From Maricaulis maris (GTDB lineage Bacteria; Pseudomonadota; Alphaproteobacteria; Caulobacterales; Maricaulaceae): a stretch of DNA of 64,000 bases. This document shows positions 3 to 10,350 of the stretch, one piece after another. Location of the stretch: assembly GCF_003634045.1 (NCBI RefSeq), contig NZ_RBIM01000005.1, positions 186,001-250,000 of the forward strand. Direction: 5' to 3'. Positions within the stretch are counted from its first letter, which is position 1. Each line of letters opens with the position of its first letter. The position numbers and the translations under genes were made by a program. Below the pieces are notes generated by a model. The model was not told the origin of the DNA and did no database searches. It was given only the letters and a program-made list of their open reading frames with translations.

Positions 3-926
3 ACCGTCCAGAACCTCCTGATCCTGCGCTTTGCCAATTATCTTTTCGAGCCGATCTGGAATGCCAATGGCATCGACCATGTCCAGATCACGGTCGCGGA
101 GTCGTTGGGGGCGGGCAAGCGTGCGAGCTATTATGACCGCTCAGGCGCGCTGCGTGACATGGTCCAGAACCATTTGCTGCAATTGGCCTGCCTGGTCGCA
201 ATGGAGCCGCCGGCATCGCTTGATCCGGACGCGGTTCGAACCGAGAAGCTCAAGGTTCTCAAGGCACTGCGCCCGGTCAACGCGTCCAATGTGACGCAGG
301 ACGTGGTGCGCGGCCAGTACCAGGCTGGCGCTGTTGAGGGTGAGACGGTGCCCGGTTATGCCGAGGAAGTCGGACATGCGACGCAGACCGAGACCTTTGT
401 CGGCGTGCGGGCCCATGTCGACAATTGGCGCTGGGCCGGCGTGCCCTTCTATCTGCGCACCGGCAAGCGGATGGCGTCGCGGCGTTCGGAAATCATCGTC
501 CAGTTCAAGCCGATCCCGCACGATGTGGTGGGCGCGACCGAAGGTGCGATGCATCCCAACCGGCTGGTCATCCGGCTGCAACCGGATGAGGGCGTCAAGC
601 TGATGTTGATGACCAAGGATCCGGGACCGGGTGGCCTGCGCCTTCGGTATGTCCCGCTGAACTTGGCCTATGCCGAGCATTTCGATCACGATTACCCCGA
701 CGCCTATGAGCGCCTGTTGATGGCGGTCGTGCGCGGCAATCTCAGCCTCTTCATGCGCCGCGACGAGGTTGAGGCCGCCTGGCGCTGGGTTGATGGCATC
801 ATCCAGTCCTGGGACGACAGCCAGGCCAAACTCTACGGCTATCAGGCCGGCACCGACGGGCCGACCCAGTCCGCCCTTCTGCTCGCCCGCGAGGAAAGGG
901 AGTGGTTCGATGCCCTTGGCACCTAG
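3..926 (+). CDS. zwf: Glucose-6-phosphate 1-dehydrogenase, 3' part
   Basis: Cytosolic enzyme that oxidises glucose 6-phosphate to 6-phosphogluconolactone with NAD(P)+, the first step of the Entner-Doudoroff route. The frame is open from base 3, so the start lies outside the window; about 307 C-terminal residues are visible, roughly the last 60 percent of the usual 490. They carry conserved family segments, including RFANYLFEPIWN near the start, FYLRTGKRM about half way and the C-terminal WRWVDGI region. The stop overlaps the pgl start by 17 bases, which suggests translational coupling. Identity is firm from the sequence and from the pgl-edd neighbours. Confidence 0.96.
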   Translation, partial: TVQNLLILRFANYLFEPIWNANGIDHVQITVAESLGAGKRASYYDRSGALRDMVQNHLLQLACLVAMEPPASLDPDAVRTEKLKVLKALRPVNASNVTQDVVRGQYQAGAVEGETVPGYAEEVGHATQTETFVGVRAHVDNWRWAGVPFYLRTGKRMASRRSEIIVQFKPIPHDVVGATEGAMHPNRLVIRLQPDEGVKLMLMTKDPGPGGLRLRYVPLNLAYAEHFDHDYPDAYERLLMAVVRGNLSLFMRRDEVEAAWRWVDGIIQSWDDSQAKLYGYQAGTDGPTQSALLLAREEREWFDALGT

Positions 927-1638
927 CACCCTGCCGGCCGTGATCGAGCATGCCGACAAGTCGGCCATGGCCGAAGCGTTGAGCGGGCCGATCCGCGATG
1001 CCCTCACTGCGGCCATCGCGAGGCGCGGTCGGGCCGTGTTTGCGGTGTCGGGCGGATCAACGCCGGAAGCCCTCTACAAGCGCTTGGCGATGGTCGATCT
1101 CGATTGGGCAAAGGTTTCGGTCGTATTGGTCGATGAGCGCTGGGTTGAGCCGGGCGAGGCCGGATCGAATGAAAGTTTCCTGCGCGCGACGCTGATGACC
1201 GGCAAGGCTGCGGCAGCGCAGCTGGTCGGGCTCAAGGCGAGCGGCGATACGCCGATCGACGGCTTGTCGGCGGTGACCGAGCGTTTGGCCGCCATCGGGT
1301 TTCCGCCGGATGTGGTGATCCTTGGCATGGGCGAGGACGGGCACACCGCATCCTGGTTCCCGCGCGCTGACGGGCTGGACGTGGCGCTTGCCGAAGGCGG
1401 CGGGCCGGTCGCCGCCATTCGCGCCAAGCAAACTGCCGTGACCGGGGCGTTGACGGATCGCATCACGCTGACCCGATCGGCCCTCGCCGGGGCGGGGCTC
1501 AGCCTTCTCCTGCTGGCCGGGGATGGCAAGAAGGCCGCCCTGGACGCCGCCCTGGCCGACGGACCGGTCGCCGACATGCCGGTGCGCGCCCTGTTGCGGT
1601 CCCCCGACGACCGGCCTGAAATTCACTGGACGCGTTGA
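910..1638 (+). CDS. pgl: 6-phosphogluconolactonase
   Basis: Hydrolyses 6-phosphogluconolactone to 6-phosphogluconate, between Zwf and Edd. The 242-residue protein has the usual length for the DevB/SOL-type family. Visible motifs are AVSGGSTP near residue 43, VDERWV near 75 and GMGEDGHTASWFP near 139. I chose ATG 910, inside the end of zwf, because the protein then begins with the ordinary family N-terminus; the same frame is open further upstream but only as zwf antiframe. edd follows after 27 bases, so zwf-pgl-edd is very probably one operon. Confidence 0.95.
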   Translation: MPLAPSTLPAVIEHADKSAMAEALSGPIRDALTAAIARRGRAVFAVSGGSTPEALYKRLAMVDLDWAKVSVVLVDERWVEPGEAGSNESFLRATLMTGKAAAAQLVGLKASGDTPIDGLSAVTERLAAIGFPPDVVILGMGEDGHTASWFPRADGLDVALAEGGGPVAAIRAKQTAVTGALTDRITLTRSALAGAGLSLLLLAGDGKKAALDAALADGPVADMPVRALLRSPDDRPEIHWTR

Positions 1639-1665
1639 TCGCGCCCAAAGCAACGGAAGACGATC

Positions 1666-3522
1666 ATGACCCAGTCGATCCACGCGACCCTTCGCGCCGT
1701 CACCGACCGTATCCGCGAACGCAGTGCGCCGACCCGCGCCGCCTATCTGGCGCAGATCACCGGCGCCCGTGAAACCGGCCGCAACCGTTCGACGCTGTCC
1801 TGCGGCAACCTTGCCCACGGCTTTGCCGCTTGTGGCGGGGAAGACAAGCGGGCGCTCAAGGATGGCGGCTGGGTCAATGTCGGTATCGTCACGGCCTATA
1901 ACGACATGCTGTCGGCGCATCAGCCGTTCGAACCCTATCCCGGCCTGATCAAGAAGGCGCTCAACCAGGTCGGTGCCGTCGGCCAGGTCGCCGGCGGCGT
2001 GCCGGCGATGTGTGACGGTGTCACCCAAGGCCAGCCGGGCATGGAGCTGTCGCTCTTCTCACGCGACGTCATCGCGATGTCGACGGCGGTCGCCCTGTCG
2101 CACAACATGTTTGACGCGGCGCTGTGCCTGGGCGTCTGCGACAAGATCGTGCCGGGCCTGCTGATCGGGGCGCTGCGCTTTGGCCATCTGCCGGTGATCT
2201 TCGTGCCGGCTGGCCCGATGCGCTCCGGCCTGCCCAATCCGGAGAAGGCCAAGGTTCGTCAGCTCTATGCCGAGGGCAAGGTTGGTCGTGAGGCGCTGCT
2301 GGAGGCGGAAAGCAAGAGTTATCACTCGCCGGGCACTTGCACTTTCTACGGCACCGCCAATTCCAACCAGATGCTGATGGAGATCATGGGCCTGCACATT
2401 CCGGGGGCCGCCTTCGTCAATCCGGCCGATCCGATGCGCGAGGCATTCACGCGGCTTGCTGCCCAGCGGGCCGCTGCGATCACTGCCGACAAGGCCGAGT
2501 ATGCGCCGATGGGCGAGATCGTCGACGAGCGTGCCATCGTCAATGCGATTGTCGGCCTGCATGCCACCGGCGGCTCGACCAATCACACCATTCACCTGAT
2601 CGCGATTGCCCGCGCTGCCGGCATATTGGTCGACTGGAGCGATTTCGATGCCCTGGCCGACATCACGCCGCTTTTGTGCCGCGTCTATCCCAACGGTCCT
2701 GCCGATGTGAACCATTTCCACGCCGCTGGCGGGTTGGGTTATGTCATCCGCGAACTGCTGGATGCCGGCCTGCTGCATGAAGACGTCAAGACCGTCATGG
2801 GACAGGGATTGCGCGCCTATGCCACCGACGCCCTGCCGGACGGCGACGGCATCATGTGGCAAGCTTCTCCGGCGCAATCTGCTGATCTCGAGATTGTTCG
2901 CCCGGTGGCCAAGCCTTTCTCGGCCGATGGCGGACTGAAACTGCTGGATGGTGCCCTCGGTCGCGCCGTGATCAAGGTTTCGGCCGTGAAGGACGAGCAT
3001 CGCATCGTCGAGGCTCCGGCCATCGTATTTGAAAGCCAGGACAGCTTCCTTGACCGGTTCAAGGTCGGCGAGCTCGATCGTGATTTCATCGCCGTGCTGC
3101 GTTTCCAGGGGCCGCGCGCCAATGGCATGCCGGAACTGCACAAGCTGACCCCGGCCTTGGGGTCGTTGCAGGATCGCGGTTTCAAGGTGGCGCTGGTTAC
3201 CGATGGTCGGATGTCGGGCGCGTCGGGCAAGGTGCCGGCGGCCATCCATCTCAGCCCGGAAGCGGCGCTCGGCGGTCCGGTCGCGAAAGTGCGCGATGGC
3301 GATCTGATCCGGCTCGACGCTGTGACCGGGGATCTGGTGGTCACGGCTGAAGGCTTCGATGACCGCCCGCTCGCGACCGCGCCGTCGGTTGTGCAGGCCG
3401 GGATGGGCCGGGAGCTTTTCTCGGGCTTCCGTCAATTGGCCGGTCCGGCCGAGGAAGGCGCGCTGGCCATCCCTGATCTCGTCACCGCTTCACAGGCGGA
3501 TGCGGCATTGATTCCGGCCTGA
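1666..3522 (+). CDS. edd: Phosphogluconate dehydratase
   Basis: Dehydrates 6-phosphogluconate to 2-keto-3-deoxy-6-phosphogluconate, the signature step of the Entner-Doudoroff pathway; a [4Fe-4S] enzyme of the IlvD/Edd family. The 618 residues match the family length. Visible family segments are [17 protein letters not shown] near residue 45, [19 protein letters not shown] near 121 and GVCDKIVPG near 158, which supply the cluster cysteines, plus [17 protein letters not shown] in the C-terminal part. The pathway partners lie directly upstream. No eda or glk gene follows within the window; the next gene is a secreted protein. Confidence 0.96.
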
Positions 3523-4424: not shown

Positions 4425-4913
4425 CACGCTGCCTGATGGCGGGAATTTAATCTCGGACCGTGACCGGCATCACATGTTGCAGGGCAACATACTGCTAGAT
4501 TCGCAAGACCGCTCAACGAGCGGCCCCAAACTCCTGGCCGCAGTTCGCTGCGTCAGGATCGGCGGGGCGCAAGTCCTTGCCCATGCGAAGCCCCAACTTC
4601 GCCTTGCGTCCCGCCGCAATTGGGCCGATGCCGACCGAAAGTTGCGCGGGATGCGGGCTGGTTGGTGTCGAAATTTCACCACGGGAGTCTTCAGTCAGAC
4701 AGGGTGACAGCTGTCGCCGGACCCGACGCCGTTCGAGCGCAGCGACCGTGGTGCCCATGACGAAGTGCAGCACCATCCCGGTCAGGCGCAGCAGGCCCGG
4801 AGACACCGGAAACGTGTTGAAAGCTTTGTTTGTTGGCGTTTGTGGTGACGGCTACTGGTTGCACAGGGCGTGCGAACCGCCAATTATGTCGGTCTGCGAT
4901 TTGGGGGCCGGGC
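4425..4913. other. Gene-free stretch before the TIR gene
   Basis: About 490 bases between the DUF3108-like gene and the TIR gene. Short open frames exist on both strands (for example minus strand 4513-4806), but none has a recognisable domain, a convincing ribosome binding site or a family resemblance. I see no tRNA, terminator with a U-run, or transposase remnant. It presumably holds the promoter of the 4914 cassette, but no clear -35/-10 pair could be picked. Confidence 0.5.
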
Positions 4914-6962
4914 ATGAGTGTGGGCACACGCTACAGGGCATTCATCAGTTACAGCCATCGCGATCAGCAATTCGCCCGCTGGCTGCACCGACAGTTGGAA
5001 ACCTATAATATTCCGTCGCGCCTGGTCGGTCGAGAAACGAAGCAAGGCACGGTTCCGCGGCGCCTGACCCCGATTTTCCGGGATCGCGAAGATCTGGCTG
5101 CGACCGGAGACCTGACGGCCTCGGTGCGGGATGCGCTTGCCAATTCCGATGCCCTGATTGTGGTCTGTTCACCCGATGCGGTTGTTTCGCGTTGGGTCAA
5201 CGAGGAGATTCGCGCCTATCGACAGCTCAACCCGGGTGGTGTGGTGCTTGCGGCTGTTCTGGCCGGCAATCCCGACTCCGATCCGGAGGCGGAACCGGGC
5301 GAGACTTGCTTCCCGCCCGCCTTGTTGGAACCCGGTGTCGATGGTGCAACGGTGGCCGAACCGGTCGCGGCTGACATGCGTCGCAAGGCTGACGGACGTC
5401 GCATGGCCTTGCTCAAACTGGTCGCCGGACTGCTCGGAATCAGCCTCGATCAGCTGATCCAGCGGGATCTCCAGCGTCGCCATCGGCGTGTGACCGCCAT
5501 CACAGGCGCGTCCTTGTTGCTTTCGGCTATCATGGCGACACTGACGCTGCTGGCCGCCTCGGCCCGGTCCGAGGCAATCCGGCGCAAGGCTGAGGCCGAG
5601 GACCTCATTGAGTTTATGCTGAATGATCTGCGAGACAATCTGGAACCGGTGGGTCGGCTCGACGCGCTGGACGCTGTCGGGGCGAAGGTGATCGAATATT
5701 ATGATGGCCAGACCGATCGTGAAATGACCACAGACGAGCTTGGCCGCCGGGCGCGCGCATTCCATCTCCTTGGCGAGATCGACAGCGCCCAGGGTGATCT
5801 CGACAATGCCTATCAGCATTTCCGGATCGCCTATGAGTCGACCAGTCGCATCCTGGCGGTCGAACCGACCATGGCCGAGCGCATATATGAGCACGCCCAG
5901 AGTAGTTACTGGGTTGGCTATTTTGCTTGGCGCCGGGGTGATCTGGACATGGCCGAGCGCCGGTTTGTCGAATATCGCGACCTGGCCTATCGCCTTCTTG
6001 AGATCGATCCGGCCAATTCCGAATGGCAGGCTGAAGTCGCGTATGCGCATTCCAATATCGGTACGCTGCAGACGGCGCAGCGGAATTGGGATGGGGCGCT
6101 GGTCGCGGCCAGCGCTGCGCTCGAGCAATTTCGCATCATCGCCGACGGTCGGCCGGACAATGATCCCGCCTGGATGGAGGTCGCCGAAACGCTGGCCTGG
6201 GTCGCATCAATCTCGGAGATTACGGACGGGCGCGACGCGGCTATTGCCGTGATCGAAGAGCAATTGGCGCTGTATGACAGTGGTCGGGTTGATCCGACCG
6301 ATGACTGGCGTGTTCGCCGGGCTGTCATTGCTGCAGAATATGCGTTGGCCCGCCTGCTGATCGCTCCGGGTTGGCGCACTCCTGAGGCCGATCTTGAACG
6401 GGCTCTCCAAATTCTTGAACCGGCCTCCTTCGAGGCGGCGGCGCTGATCGCCCATGAGCCGGACAATCTGGAATGGCGGCTGATCGGCGTGCGCGAACGT
6501 CTCTGGCAGGCCCAGGCCGAATTGTATAACGGCCGGATTGAAGCGGCGCGCAATGCCTATGTGGCAGCGACCGGCTTTATGGCGCATGAGGCCTGGGGCG
6601 CGGCAGAAGGCGCCCGTTTTGCCATCACGCGTCTGCATGCCAGCCTGATCGAAGCGCGCATATTTGCGGCTCGCGAGGATTATGTTGCGGCGCAGACCTC
6701 GGTGGAGCACATGTTGACCACGCTGGGTCAGGTCGATGACTGGTCCGGCGCGTTGGAGCGCGCACCCTACTATTATTCCGCTGGAGCCAACACGTTGGCA
6801 GATGTGCTTGATGCACAGGGGGAAAGCGTGGAAGCGCGACGTATCCGTGAAGACATTGTGCGCCGCCTCGATCCCATTCGTGACCGGATTCGGACCGATT
6901 CCGCTGCCGAGCTAGAATATGCTCGGGAATCGCTCGAAGGCGCGCTCACGAGCGCGCAGTAA
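4914..6962 (+). CDS. TIR domain protein with one membrane segment and TPR-like repeats
   Basis: A 682-residue protein. Residues about 5-150 form a TIR_2-type domain (RAFISYSHRD near 6, FRDREDLAATGDL near 56, SRWVNEEI near 93). The WVxxE glutamate, E98, aligns by motif with the NADase glutamate of SARM1-type TIR domains, so NAD+ cleavage is possible. A hydrophobic segment at about 194-217 predicts an inner-membrane anchor. The rest is helical and TPR-like. ATG 4914, behind a GGGGGCC run, is preferred to the in-frame start at 4830, which would add 28 unrelated residues. It is first of three same-strand genes. TIR-TPR proteins serve in signalling or immunity; the role here is inferred, not shown. 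Confidence 0.82.
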   Translation: MSVGTRYRAFISYSHRDQQFARWLHRQLETYNIPSRLVGRETKQGTVPRRLTPIFRDREDLAATGDLTASVRDALANSDALIVVCSPDAVVSRWVNEEIRAYRQLNPGGVVLAAVLAGNPDSDPEAEPGETCFPPALLEPGVDGATVAEPVAADMRRKADGRRMALLKLVAGLLGISLDQLIQRDLQRRHRRVTAITGASLLLSAIMATLTLLAASARSEAIRRKAEAEDLIEFMLNDLRDNLEPVGRLDALDAVGAKVIEYYDGQTDREMTTDELGRRARAFHLLGEIDSAQGDLDNAYQHFRIAYESTSRILAVEPTMAERIYEHAQSSYWVGYFAWRRGDLDMAERRFVEYRDLAYRLLEIDPANSEWQAEVAYAHSNIGTLQTAQRNWDGALVAASAALEQFRIIADGRPDNDPAWMEVAETLAWVASISEITDGRDAAIAVIEEQLALYDSGRVDPTDDWRVRRAVIAAEYALARLLIAPGWRTPEADLERALQILEPASFEAAALIAHEPDNLEWRLIGVRERLWQAQAELYNGRIEAARNAYVAATGFMAHEAWGAAEGARFAITRLHASLIEARIFAAREDYVAAQTSVEHMLTTLGQVDDWSGALERAPYYYSAGANTLADVLDAQGESVEARRIREDIVRRLDPIRDRIRTDSAAELEYARESLEGALTSAQ

Positions 6963-7020
6963 ACTCTGCCGACCCTGCAGGCGGGTCGGGATTCGCGAAA
7001 TGCCAGAGGGGGACATCCAA

Positions 7021-7629
7021 ATGGCTGTGATCGACAAGGACGCGTTCGACGGGTCCATCGTCCAGGAAGAATTGTTGGGCGCGTGTGGCCTGACACCTAC
7101 GCAGACGCAGATCAGCCTGATCGCTCGGGCCAGCGACGGTTTCACCGTCATGAACGGTAGCGATGCCGGGCGGGAAATGTTTGACGATGCGGAGATCGCC
7201 CAGATCTTTGTGATCTTTGCGGAAACCGTGAATGACTTCGCCAATGCTGACAGCGCGACATTGCGCACGGCGGTGGCAGCGGCCCTGGCGGGCATGTGGA
7301 CGCCTTGTTCTGCTACCAATCCATGCCCCTTTGACCAGAATGTGCATGGCAACACCCGGATCATCTTCAATGTCCATATTCCGGGTTGGGGGTTTGAAGA
7401 GGCGCGCATCAAGTTCAAGGGGATCGACCCCTCGGGACAGTTCTGTGGGCTGGACTGGCTGACCCTGAATGGTGAAAACTGCAAGCCCTACAGTTTCCAG
7501 ATTCAGACCAAACCGGTTGAGGCGCCTGCCGACTATGAATACGCGCTCTTCATCACGGCGTCACAAGATGCCGGTGAGCAGAAAACACGGGTCATTATCG
7601 ATCCGTCGATCCGCCTCACGCCGCCCTGA
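7021..7629 (+). CDS. Unknown 202-residue protein in the TIR/cyclase cassette
   Basis: I do not recognise this family. The N-terminal third is acidic and helical (QEELLGACGLTPTQTQIS, then FDDAEIAQIFVIFAETVNDF). The C-terminal half looks beta-rich (TRIIFNVHIPGWGF, FKGIDPSGQFCGLDWLTL, YEYALFITAS), and four cysteines lie between residues about 95 and 155. There is no signal peptide or membrane segment. ATG 7021 follows an AGAGGGGG ribosome binding site by about eight bases, so it is preferred to the in-frame ATGs upstream. It lies 58 bases after the TIR gene and 23 before the cyclase-like gene, so co-transcription is likely; it could be an adaptor or ligand-binding partner. Confidence 0.72.
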   Translation: MAVIDKDAFDGSIVQEELLGACGLTPTQTQISLIARASDGFTVMNGSDAGREMFDDAEIAQIFVIFAETVNDFANADSATLRTAVAAALAGMWTPCSATNPCPFDQNVHGNTRIIFNVHIPGWGFEEARIKFKGIDPSGQFCGLDWLTLNGENCKPYSFQIQTKPVEAPADYEYALFITASQDAGEQKTRVIIDPSIRLTPP

Positions 7630-7652
7630 TCGGTGGCTTAGTCCGCCGGGTG

Positions 7653-9512
7653 ATGCCGTTAGCCCGGAGCGGGCGCGTGCGTGAGCGGATCATTGACCGT
7701 TTCAACCAGGGTGATCTCGCCCGGGCCTATGATCTTTGTCAGGACGGTCTTCGTGACCGTCCTGATGATTTTTGGCTCAAGCATCGCGCCGTGTTGTGTC
7801 TGATCCGCTCGGGGGCGCTCGAGCGAGCGTCCGCCGCCTATCATGAATACCGGCTCGCTGAAATTCGCCATGATGAGGACTGTCTCGCCGTCGGCGCACG
7901 TCTCCTCAAAGCGCTGGCACTCGAGTCGTCGGGTCAAGCTTTCGCCCGGTTCGCCCGTGAGAGTGCCCGCAATTACGCTGATGTGCACGCGCGGACCGGC
8001 GGCCACTACCCAGCGATCAACGCCGCCAGCATGTACATGCTGGCCGGAGATCCGGGGCCCGCTGAAATCTACGCCCGCAAGGTGCTCTACGGTAGTTTCG
8101 ATACCGCCACGGCGTCCCGCGAACAGGCATATTATCGACAAGCATCGCAGGCCGAAGCCTATCTCCTTCTTGGCGACCTCCCGACCGCCCGTTCGACGCT
8201 TCGCGAGGCCTTCCGGTTGGACCCCGACAATCATCTGGCACATGCCACGACCTTGCGGCAGTTAAGGTTGCTGGTCGCCGTCCTGGGACTCGATTCAGAT
8301 TGGCTTGCGCCGCTTGAGCCACCACGTCCGGCGCACTATGCAGGCCATATTTTCGGCTTGGGCGCGGGCGAGGGGCAACTGGACAAGGGCCAGGAAGGCC
8401 GGCTGCGTGATACGGTCGAGCTGATGTTGGCGCGCCATCATGTGGGGCCTGTCCACGGGGCGCTGGCTGCCGGCTCGGATATCGTTATCGCTGAAGCCGC
8501 CCTGGCGCGGGGTTGCGAGTTGAATGTGGTGCTGCCGGCCCCGGTTCCGGCGTTCTTGGACGCCTCGGTCCGGCCCTTCGGCGAGGCCTGGGTGCACCGC
8601 TTCGAGGCCTGTCTCGAACAGGCTGAAAAAGTGGTCGAACTGACGTCGGACCGCCGTATTGTTTCGGTTCAGACGCTGAACTTCGCCAGTCTTGTTGCCA
8701 TGGGCATGGCGCGTATGCGAGCGAGTGTCCTCGCCACCGAACCCTTGCAGATACTGGTGTCTGAAGCGGATGATGCCGAAACCCCGGCGGGTTTTGGCAC
8801 CTTGCATGACCGGGATGTCTGGAGCGTCTGCGGACTGGATCAGGTCCGTGTGCCCTATCCGGGCCAGCGATCATCGATCCGCACCAAGCCCGCTGCCGAT
8901 GAAAATCCCGAGCCCGGTTTTCGCCCGGCCATGCGGGCCATGCTTTTTCTTGATGTGGCCGGCTCGACTTCGGTGCCCGATGATCGCGTGCCGCATTTCG
9001 TGCAGGCGGTGCTCAAACCCCTTGCTGCGTGCTGCGATGCGCTGGCGGACCCACCGGTCCATGCCGATAGCTGGGGGGATGGCATGTTCCTGGCCTTTGA
9101 CCGGGTGGAAGACGCGGCGCGCGCAGCCGATACGCTGCGGCAGGCCTTTGCCGATATCGACATGGATGAACACGCCCTGCCGCCGTCGCTCGGCCTGCGG
9201 ATCGCCGGTCATTTCGGCCCCGTGCATGAAGGCGAGGACCCGTTGCAAAAAAGGCCATCCCTGTTTGGCGGACAGGTTGCGGTCGCGGCGCGGATCGAGG
9301 CGGTCACGGTTCCCGGGTCCATTTTCGTCAGCGAAGCCTTCGCGGCGGCACTCGCCATGTCGTCCTATGCGTTCCGAAGTGAATATGTCGGCCAGATCCG
9401 GATTGATGCAGTGATGCCCGACCAGCGGCTCTACGCATTGCGGGCCTTGCCGGCGAATGCAGCCGCCAATCTGCGTCGCAGCCGGTCAGCTCGATCCACG
9501 CAACCGGTCTAG
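7653..9512 (+). CDS. TRAFs-binding-like / TPR protein with C-terminal class III nucleotidyl cyclase-like domain
   Basis: A 619-residue soluble protein. Residues about 1-390 are helical repeats resembling the TRAFs-binding (DUF4071) region known from ASK-type kinases and some bacterial proteins. Residues about 425-590 resemble a class III adenylate/guanylate cyclase: MLFLDVAGST supplies the first metal aspartate (D434), DSWGDGM the second (D476), and AVAARIE the transition-state arginine (R547). The asparagine normally four residues before that arginine is alanine (A543), so activity may be altered or lost. A GTG at 7650 directly precedes the ATG and is an alternative start. Its 3' end overlaps the convergent Crp/Fnr gene by 27 bases. 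Confidence 0.78.
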   Translation: MPLARSGRVRERIIDRFNQGDLARAYDLCQDGLRDRPDDFWLKHRAVLCLIRSGALERASAAYHEYRLAEIRHDEDCLAVGARLLKALALESSGQAFARFARESARNYADVHARTGGHYPAINAASMYMLAGDPGPAEIYARKVLYGSFDTATASREQAYYRQASQAEAYLLLGDLPTARSTLREAFRLDPDNHLAHATTLRQLRLLVAVLGLDSDWLAPLEPPRPAHYAGHIFGLGAGEGQLDKGQEGRLRDTVELMLARHHVGPVHGALAAGSDIVIAEAALARGCELNVVLPAPVPAFLDASVRPFGEAWVHRFEACLEQAEKVVELTSDRRIVSVQTLNFASLVAMGMARMRASVLATEPLQILVSEADDAETPAGFGTLHDRDVWSVCGLDQVRVPYPGQRSSIRTKPAADENPEPGFRPAMRAMLFLDVAGSTSVPDDRVPHFVQAVLKPLAACCDALADPPVHADSWGDGMFLAFDRVEDAARAADTLRQAFADIDMDEHALPPSLGLRIAGHFGPVHEGEDPLQKRPSLFGGQVAVAARIEAVTVPGSIFVSEAFAAALAMSSYAFRSEYVGQIRIDAVMPDQRLYALRALPANAAANLRRSRSARSTQPV

Positions 9513-10172
9513 TTGGTCGGGGTCTACGAGTTCGATCCGGTCACGCAGTTTCTCAAGCAGGCCTTTTCGCTGCAGGTCATTGATGGTTCGCGAGGCAGTT
9601 TCGCGTGTGGAGTTCACACGCAAGGCCAGCTCCTTCATCGACGGAGCCGGTGCGATGACCCGGGCGCTGCCGTCGGATCCGACCGGTTTCGACATGCGCA
9701 GCAATTCGGCATAGATGCGGCCGGGCGCCGACAGGGCCGACAACTCGAACATGCGTTGGGTGGTGTGCTGGACCCGGCGCGCCAGAACGCGGGACAGGGC
9801 GAGGCCGATCTCGCCGTGACGACGTATCAGGCCGAAAAACGCCTCTCCGCTATAAATGGCCAGATCGCATTCGGTTTCCGCGATGATGCCGGAGATTCGC
9901 GGTTGCCCGGTCAGTGCGGCCAGCTCGCCAAACACAGCGCCGGCTTCGAAGGCATCGAGCCAGATTTCCTGCCCGTTTTCCGACAGCAACACGACCCGGG
10001 CGCGCCCGCCCAGCAACAGGAAGACCCGATCATCGGCTTCGTCCTGGGCAATAATGACAGTGCCTGCGGCCACACGGCTTCGTTCGGCCTGGCTCGCCAT
10101 GCCAAGGCATGCCGCCTCCTCGCGGATATCGAGATCCGTCAGGGCAAGGTTCCAGGCCGTGTCGAGCTTCAT
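9486..10172 (-). CDS. Crp/Fnr-family transcription regulator
   Basis: A 228-residue regulator: N-terminal cyclic-nucleotide-binding beta-barrel (about 25-130) and C-terminal winged helix (RVNSTRETASRTINDL near 170-190). The phosphate-cassette-like FGELAALTGQPRISG keeps a GE glutamate and a PR arginine at the places that hold cAMP in Crp. There is no N-terminal cysteine cluster as in Fnr. ATG 10172 has a GAGAGGA site five bases upstream; the longer frame to 10220 lacks one. It is convergent with the cyclase-like gene and divergent from the sulfatase gene, so it may respond to a cyclic nucleotide and control either neighbour; that is inference. Confidence 0.88.
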   Translation of the reverse strand: MKLDTAWNLALTDLDIREEAACLGMASQAERSRVAAGTVIIAQDEADDRVFLLLGGRARVVLLSENGQEIWLDAFEAGAVFGELAALTGQPRISGIIAETECDLAIYSGEAFFGLIRRHGEIGLALSRVLARRVQHTTQRMFELSALSAPGRIYAELLRMSKPVGSDGSARVIAPAPSMKELALRVNSTRETASRTINDLQRKGLLEKLRDRIELVDPDQLDRLRGSS

Positions 10173-10350
10173 GGGTCCTCTCGCGGGCCGACGCCGGGCG
10201 CGCGTCGCGATGCCCGACACCCGAAACTAGATATCTCACACGAAAATGCCAGCAAATTCGGTCGCTTGTCCTGCGCTCGCCCGGGATTGGAATCGCCATT
10301 TGCCGAAATGATGGCTAGCGTGGGTGAACACTGTTCTCTGGGAGGAGAAG

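Follow-up and report, generated by a model that had tools for sequence, protein, structure and literature searches.

The stretch analysed here, 64,000 nucleotides of the Maricaulis maris assembly GCF_003634045.1 (contig NZ_RBIM01000005.1, positions 186,001 to 250,000 of the forward strand; the whole of it is called the window below), carries a three-gene cassette encoding a membrane-anchored TIR-TPR protein (P0001), a small protein that we call X (P0002) and a larger protein (P0003) in which an ASK-type TPR-S domain, a predicted SLOG domain and a class III nucleotide cyclase are joined, together with a convergent gene for a Crp-type transcription regulator. We propose that these four genes make up a two-messenger relay with a transcriptional output, in which the TIR domain would generate an NAD-derived messenger, the SLOG/TPR-S protein would read it and make a cyclic mononucleotide (cNMP), and the Crp regulator would respond to the latter; we hold this reading with middling confidence and feel that it could fall either way. 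A fuller version, which we put forward tentatively and with some leaning against it, is that an ASK-like switch of TPR-S and SLOG reads an NAD derivative made by the TIR domain and sets off the cyclase, that the cNMP drives a dedicated Crp regulator, that a self-cleaving Asp-Pro protein gates the system, and that the module, with its transcriptional, non-lethal output, is a present-day relative of the system from which the ASK signalosome descended.

Co-variation of the cyclase and the Crp regulator

The Crp-type protein matches the cNMP_binding (E 7.3e-18) and HTH_Crp_2 (E 3.7e-13) families, and in Maricaulis it retains the equivalents of Glu72 and Arg82 of E. coli CRP, which belong to the phosphate-ribose pocket. 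The cyclase in many relatives of P0003 is a remnant without the metal aspartates. A Crp neighbour is present at 49 of the 87 distinct TPR-S loci, and there the state of the cyclase can be compared with that of the Crp pocket. Where the pair of cyclase aspartates is intact (24 loci), both pocket residues are kept in the neighbouring Crp protein in 24/24; at the loci with a degenerate cyclase (25), the Crp protein has lost one or both of them in 25/25. Mapped on a TPR-S/SLOG tree, the co-loss takes two changes, one in a clade of Robiginitomaculaceae and one in a mixed clade with Croceicoccus and Novosphingobium among its members, Crp changing both times. The Fisher value of the association, 1.6e-14, overstates the evidence, because what the tree offers is two coincidences out of two plus a long joint retention; in an independent-pair test the two changes were too few for significance. 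From this joint loss of active site and binding pocket we infer that the cyclase product is probably sensed by the Crp regulator. At two loci in Rhodospirillaceae metagenome-assembled genomes (L123 5463-5840; L127 5177-5581), the neighbour is a short protein of 125-134 residues with a cNMP-binding domain and seemingly no helix-turn-helix domain.

A candidate Crp site upstream of the module

A perfect GTGAN6TCAC palindrome, of the kind recognised by CRP, stands 454 bases ahead of the TIR start. When all 2304 palindromes given by 256 half-sites and nine spacers were ranked without bias in the DNA ahead of the TIR gene and of the Crp gene, this motif came first: it is present at 21 of the 49 loci that have a Crp partner, against 11 for the runner-up and a mean of 0.63, and in just 1 of the 38 loci without one. 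About half of the 21 box-bearing loci belong to the related Maricaulis group, the box being found in Kordiimonas, Hellea, Novosphingobium and others as well, and the six bases in the core of the palindrome vary among loci. The enrichment of the motif suggests that the Crp regulator controls its own module through this candidate box. A second perfect copy lies within the TIR gene at window positions 5490-5503. A scan for sigma-70 promoters gave no gain over shuffled sequence.

P0003: an ASK-type scaffold, a predicted SLOG domain and a cyclase

Family profiles recognise the two ends of P0003. The cyclase matches Guanylate_cyc at E 3.6e-8, and the N-terminal part matches TPR-S (PF20308) at E 1.5e-5, with 26.0 bits against a curated cut-off of 27.6; relatives of P0003 exceed that cut-off (34.9-53.3 bits) and match MAP3K_TRAF_bd as well. 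An AlphaFold2 (AF2) model built from 34 relatives (mean pLDDT 91.5, pTM 0.92) and compared with known structures by VIA-align places residues 1-226 on the central regulatory region of ASK1 (5ulm, Z 15.8, 212 residues) and residues 424-599 on class III cyclases (5d0e, Z 16.7). For residues 223-403 in between, the top structural match is YpsA of Bacillus subtilis (2nx2, Z 17.2, root-mean-square deviation 2.5, 155 residues), and by the predicted structure this segment is a SLOG domain, with the Rossmannoid fold of the TIR-DrHyd-SLOG group. The first-pass annotation of this DNA had rightly seen an ASK-type TPR domain joined to a class III cyclase; it passed over the SLOG domain. None of the Pfam models matches that region, which accounts for its escaping notice. 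The glycine-rich motif GALAAG.D of the SLOG segment is invariant in 14 diverse members. The cyclic ADP-ribose-sensing SLOG domains of conflict systems have been placed in the YpsA-like clade, and the SLOG domain of ThsA reads the product of the ThsB TIR domain (PMC9503650). By analogy, we suspect that the SLOG domain of P0003 binds the product of the TIR domain encoded beside it.

The cyclase of P0003 retains both metal aspartates (D434 and D476) and the arginine (R547), and the Lys, Asp and Asn positions that specify substrate or stabilise the transition state read, by eye, Asp, Ser and Ala. Because these positions are non-canonical, the product of the cyclase cannot be named.

The TIR-TPR protein

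P0001 matches TIR_2 (E 2.3e-14) and ThsB_TIR (E 2.6e-10), with a weak TPR match, and has one hydrophobic helix at about residues 196-214. The glutamate of its WVxxE motif, E98, is conserved in 75/75 related TIR domains, so that the earlier description of a membrane-anchored TIR-TPR protein with the NADase glutamate holds, and we infer that the TIR domain is an active NADase. The glutamate is unaffected by loss of the cyclase (still 75/75), and its invariance in lineages with a dead cyclase argues that the TIR domain does not depend on cyclase output. The family profile scan found no cNMP-binding domain in P0001.

The half of P0001 that comprises the transmembrane (TM) helix and the TPR region is found with other heads (L200 2135-5446; L196, L197, L199): a wHTH-STAND-type protein in Niveispirillum, and TIR-like, degenerate-looking heads in genomes of the same family. 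This occurrence with different heads suggests that the TM-TPR half is a reusable receptor half.

Protein X and the Asp-Pro self-cleaving family

P0002, annotated earlier as a 202-residue unknown, has itself no usable match in Pfam, NCBIfam or PADLOC, and none to pNTSase1 (PF20301) at E 1. Its counterparts encoded between the TIR and TPR-S genes have little in common (19-29% across families), but nearly all of them terminate in a strand and a tail resembling IDP-x-I-x-N. Some match pNTSase1 (2.9e-68 for L101, 4.1e-7 for L166 and 8.8e-7 for L157). The AF2 model of P0002 (pLDDT 81) has its best fold match in SO1698, a DP-EP 'aspartic peptidase' (3njm, Z 9.2), followed by MakD and PixA, the last with a Z of 7.7, below that of SO1698. 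SO1698 cuts its own Asp116-Pro117 bond. In the superposition the last residue of P0002, 202, pairs with residue 124 of SO1698, so that the ends of the tails are aligned and D194-P195 therefore falls on D116-P117.

The relation is also seen between sequence profiles. Seven DP-EP relatives taken from genomes share a terminal SxDP-x-[IVM]-x-N, and the X profile scores 27.0 against the DP-EP profile, column shuffles reaching 9.4 +/- 1.8 with a maximum of 15.4; with the tails removed the score is 20.0 against 8.6 +/- 1.6 for shuffles. The most conserved polar residues of X are the Asp-Pro pair (kept in 40/43 proteins) and an Asp at the position of SO1698 D37 (30/43), and the position of SO1698 Ser114 is not conserved in X, being occupied by Ile and similar residues. 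Lys98 of SO1698 was considered as a required residue and set aside, as it is not conserved in X; the chain extents of PDB entries suggest that the K98A variant of SO1698 cleaves and that the D37A, S114A, D116A and P117A variants do not. Because the Pfam DP-EP model (PF08985) gives no direct match to P0002 or its counterparts, we call P0002 DP-EP-like and not a member of the family. PixA (PF12306) was considered as the family of P0002; its members numbered 0 in 190 genomes, a count that carries no information, as the controls were likewise silent.

On the predicted structure, P0002 appears to be a beta-sandwich protein related to the Asp-Pro self-cleaving DP-EP proteins and not obviously a nucleotide synthetase. 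As a separate observation, pNTSase1 proteins such as that at L101 7398-7874 carry the IDPxIxN tail common to DP-EP proteins. The functional name given to PF20301 may be wrong, and its members may be Asp-Pro self-cleaving proteins. The X proteins of four Hellea-type loci (L085, L088, L130, L135) have a lipoprotein-type signal, a hint that X acts beyond the cytoplasm; the TPR part of P0001 may be located there too.

Layout and distribution of the module

The three open reading frames (ORFs) were verified on the forward strand with gaps of 58 and 23 bases, in agreement with the earlier coordinates, and look like a single operon (Table 1). Genes of the Entner-Doudoroff pathway (glucose-6-phosphate dehydrogenase, 6-phosphogluconolactonase and edd) lie just upstream at window positions 105-3522, by eye a housekeeping setting.

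Table 1. Positions of the module and its features in window numbering
Feature	Position	Strand	Remarks
P0001, TIR-TPR protein, 682 residues	4914..6962	+	TIR residues 10-118, TM, C-terminal TPR region
P0001 catalytic Glu98	5205-5207	+	WVxxE glutamate
P0001 single TM helix, residues ~196-214	5499-5555	+	
P0002 (X), 202 residues	7021..7629	+	alpha/beta N-terminal part, beta-sandwich and short tail; DP-EP-like fold (predicted)
P0002 Asp194-Pro195, end of beta-sandwich	7600-7605	+	
P0003, 619 residues	7653..9512	+	TPR-S, SLOG (predicted) and class III cyclase
P0003 residues 1-226, TPR-S / TRAFs-binding-like helical domain	7653..8330	+	ASK1 structural match
P0003 residues 223-403, SLOG (YpsA-like) Rossmannoid domain	8319..8861	+	predicted-structure match
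P0003 residues 424-599, class III nucleotide cyclase	8922..9449	+	profile and structure match
P0003 metal Asp434	8952-8954	+	
P0003 metal Asp476	9078-9080	+	
Crp-type regulator, cNMP-binding domain and Crp HTH	9486..10220	-	convergent; 27-base overlap with P0003 3' end
Candidate Crp site, CRP-type palindrome GTGACCGGCATCAC	4460..4473		between DUF3108 gene and TIR gene; perfect GTGAN6TCAC

All three genes are present in 18 of 19 Maricaulis genomes, the source genome counted, and at the ten Maricaulis-group loci examined the trio and the Crp gene lie between the edd/DUF3108 genes and a gene for an MBL-fold hydrolase or an M14 peptidase. The exception, G011, has the flanks and lacks the module. 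Its slot (L194, G011:C17, 3462-7124) holds genes for an Lrp-type regulator and an OsmC-like protein, a different, unrelated Crp-type gene, and one for a membrane class III cyclase, the last found in no other Maricaulis. In a scan of 101 relatives, a relative of P0001 is encoded within about 6 kb of a relative of P0003 in 32 of the 34 genomes that have the latter; of the two exceptions, one is split over short contigs and one is a cyclase-only match. The trio is co-inherited, and the proximity of the P0001 and P0003 genes is more than chance. The first-pass annotation was right to treat the trio as a unit, its genes being co-located across genera and its TIR domain aligning at the catalytic glutamate, and it missed the convergent Crp gene.

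A wider set of 80 loci from GTDB genomes (Maricaulis, Kordiimonas, Phenylobacterium, Sphingomonas, Croceicoccus, Hellea, Robiginitomaculum and others) has a TIR gene at 68 of them and, at 42, a gene of Crp type no more than 3.5 kb away; an X-like protein with an Asp-Pro tail is encoded at 38 (background 8 of 871 ORFs) and a trypsin-like protease gene is present at 8. Other genera carry the module at different sites, and among the Maricaulis flanking genes tested Crp is the sole one to accompany it. Plasmid records hold one full-looking module (Novosphingobium) and one distant TPR-S/cyclase (Caballeronia). In Phenylobacterium and its kin (L131, L134, L142, L143, L164, L169) the TIR gene and the TPR-S/cyclase gene run towards each other, their ends all but touching or overlapping, with neither X nor Crp nearby.

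The proposed relay and its alternatives

In the relay that we propose, the membrane-anchored TIR-TPR protein would be the receptor, a stimulus on its TPR part switching on the cytoplasmic TIR NADase, which would produce a messenger derived from ADP-ribose. The SLOG domain of P0003, held on the TPR-S scaffold, might bind this messenger in the manner of ThsA in Thoeris and, once occupied, turn on the attached class III cyclase. The cyclic mononucleotide so made would be bound by the adjacent Crp-type regulator, a step to which the co-loss lends good support, and Crp would then act at the box upstream, and probably elsewhere too, such that the module regulates itself, as the motif enrichment would have it. 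Protein X is perhaps most likely a sensor or gate on the TIR-TPR protein, possibly acting through cleavage at its Asp-Pro bond.

Several points weigh against this relay. It is known here only through comparison of sequences and structures; the SLOG domain was recognised in a predicted model, sequence profiles staying below significance (the best PDB match of the region by sequence, the DrHyd-type enzyme DNPH1, has a non-significant E of 0.38). Given its non-canonical residues, the activity of the cyclase, like its product, is uncertain. The co-loss of cyclase and pocket amounts to no more than two independent events in the tree, and 38 of the 87 distinct TPR-S loci are without such a Crp gene nearby, so that Crp is not universal to the module. 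The same box could, moreover, serve other members of the Crp family in the cell.

The order of events could be the reverse, with the cNMP made by the cyclase switching on the TIR protein and Crp being merely a local regulator. The first-pass annotation had supposed such a cyclase-derived signal, the genes look like a single operon, and messengers made by cyclases do activate effectors in Pycsar and CBASS. What makes this direction less likely is that P0001 has no detected cNMP-binding domain and that the TIR glutamate survives loss of the cyclase, and the SLOG domain on the cyclase protein is a natural receiver of a TIR product; we consider the reverse order very unlikely. The order from TIR to cyclase to Crp fits better because the SLOG domain sits on the cyclase protein and the Crp partner co-varies with the cyclase. 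One might also dispense with small messengers altogether and picture the direct assembly of TIR, X and TPR-S/SLOG into a protein scaffold, with Crp switched through contact with the TPR-S protein and the cyclase being optional. The TPR region of ASK1 is a protein scaffold, and the 25 loci with a degenerate cyclase mostly retain TIR, X and Crp; yet the metal residues of the cyclase and the nucleotide pocket of Crp are both kept at the 24 other loci, and the TIR glutamate is invariant, and to us a scaffold of this kind seems quite unlikely.

A defence role was the other possibility raised earlier, namely that infection triggers the cyclase or the TIR domain of a Thoeris-, Pycsar- or CBASS-like system and NAD+ depletion aborts the infection. 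The invariant TIR glutamate, the standing of SLOG and TPR-S as domains of conflict systems, and the trypsin-like protease within the cluster of several relatives all suit it. PADLOC, however, matched no system, P0001 found no match in 50,697 phage records, the module has a fixed site between housekeeping genes in nearly all Maricaulis and is vertically inherited, and the co-varying partner of the cyclase is a transcription regulator, with no killing effector found; we regard an anti-phage function as unlikely, and signalling, which the same annotation had also proposed, as the best reading. Finally, P0002 might be a nucleotide synthetase, as the Pfam description of PF20301 ('Predicted novel nucleotide synthetase') would imply for those of its counterparts that match this family, and so the source of a further messenger. 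Its predicted fold is closest to the DP-EP, MakD and PixA beta-sandwiches, the DP-EP profile score lies well outside the shuffles, and the polar residues most conserved in X are the Asp-Pro pair and the Asp that corresponds to D37 of SO1698, which leaves us highly doubtful of a synthetase.

TIR domains are usually regarded as enzymes that kill the cell or that feed such enzymes. The TIR-to-Crp relay, as we read the module, appears to couple a TIR domain to ordinary gene regulation by way of a second nucleotide messenger, with the domain that serves animals as the ASK1 scaffold in the middle. If this is true, it would connect TIR signalling with cAMP-type control and with the way in which ASK signalling arose.

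Relation to known systems

The earlier view that no described system has exactly this trio was too strong, as Pfam already names TPR-S (PF20308) and pNTSase1 (PF20301), and Burroughs and Aravind in 2020 reportedly described TPR-S and pNTSase1 as components of conflict systems. The module shares with these components the TPR-S domain related to the TRAFs-binding region of ASK, a TIR gene in the neighbourhood and P0002 counterparts that fall in pNTSase1; it differs in that the TPR-S domain continues into SLOG and cyclase domains of one protein, a Crp partner and a CRP box are added, and X appears DP-EP-like. A 2021 paper that cites Burroughs and Aravind 2020 derives components of the animal ASK signalosome from bacterial conflict systems (PMC8195603). 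With the central regulatory region of ASK1/MAP3K5 the module has the TPR-S fold in common, by the structural match given above, while SLOG and cyclase domains and no kinase follow it here.

Thoeris likewise sets a TIR protein with a catalytic glutamate (ThsB) beside a gene with a SLOG domain (ThsA); there the SLOG domain is joined to a Sir2 NADase, whereas here it is coupled to TPR-S and a cyclase and the output is a transcription regulator, Pfam, NCBIfam and PADLOC finding no Sir2 in P0003. Pycsar resembles the module in using a nucleotide cyclase as signal maker, and differs in that the cNMP domain here belongs to a Crp transcription regulator and not to a killing effector. The cyclase of P0003 has the class III fold with both metal aspartates, which does not predict its base specificity, and PADLOC gave no match. 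Profile scans matched no CD-NTase of the CBASS type, the cyclase of P0003 being of class III. Like ordinary signalling by class III cyclases and CRP, the module has a cyclase beside a CRP-type regulator with cNMP-pocket residues and a GTGAN6TCAC box, with the difference that the cyclase sits on a TPR-S/SLOG sensor within a TIR operon. To the DP-EP family of Shewanella SO1698, X is linked by the predicted beta-sandwich, the C-terminal Asp-Pro with its short tail and an Asp where SO1698 has D37; it is set apart by the replacement of Ser114 and the want of a direct Pfam match. The TPR-S and pNTSase1 components have thus been catalogued before, and, as far as our search reached, their wiring with Crp is a new version of a known theme; within the same limits, so far unreported are the SLOG domain, the Crp link seen in co-loss and box, and the relation of P0002 to DP-EP.

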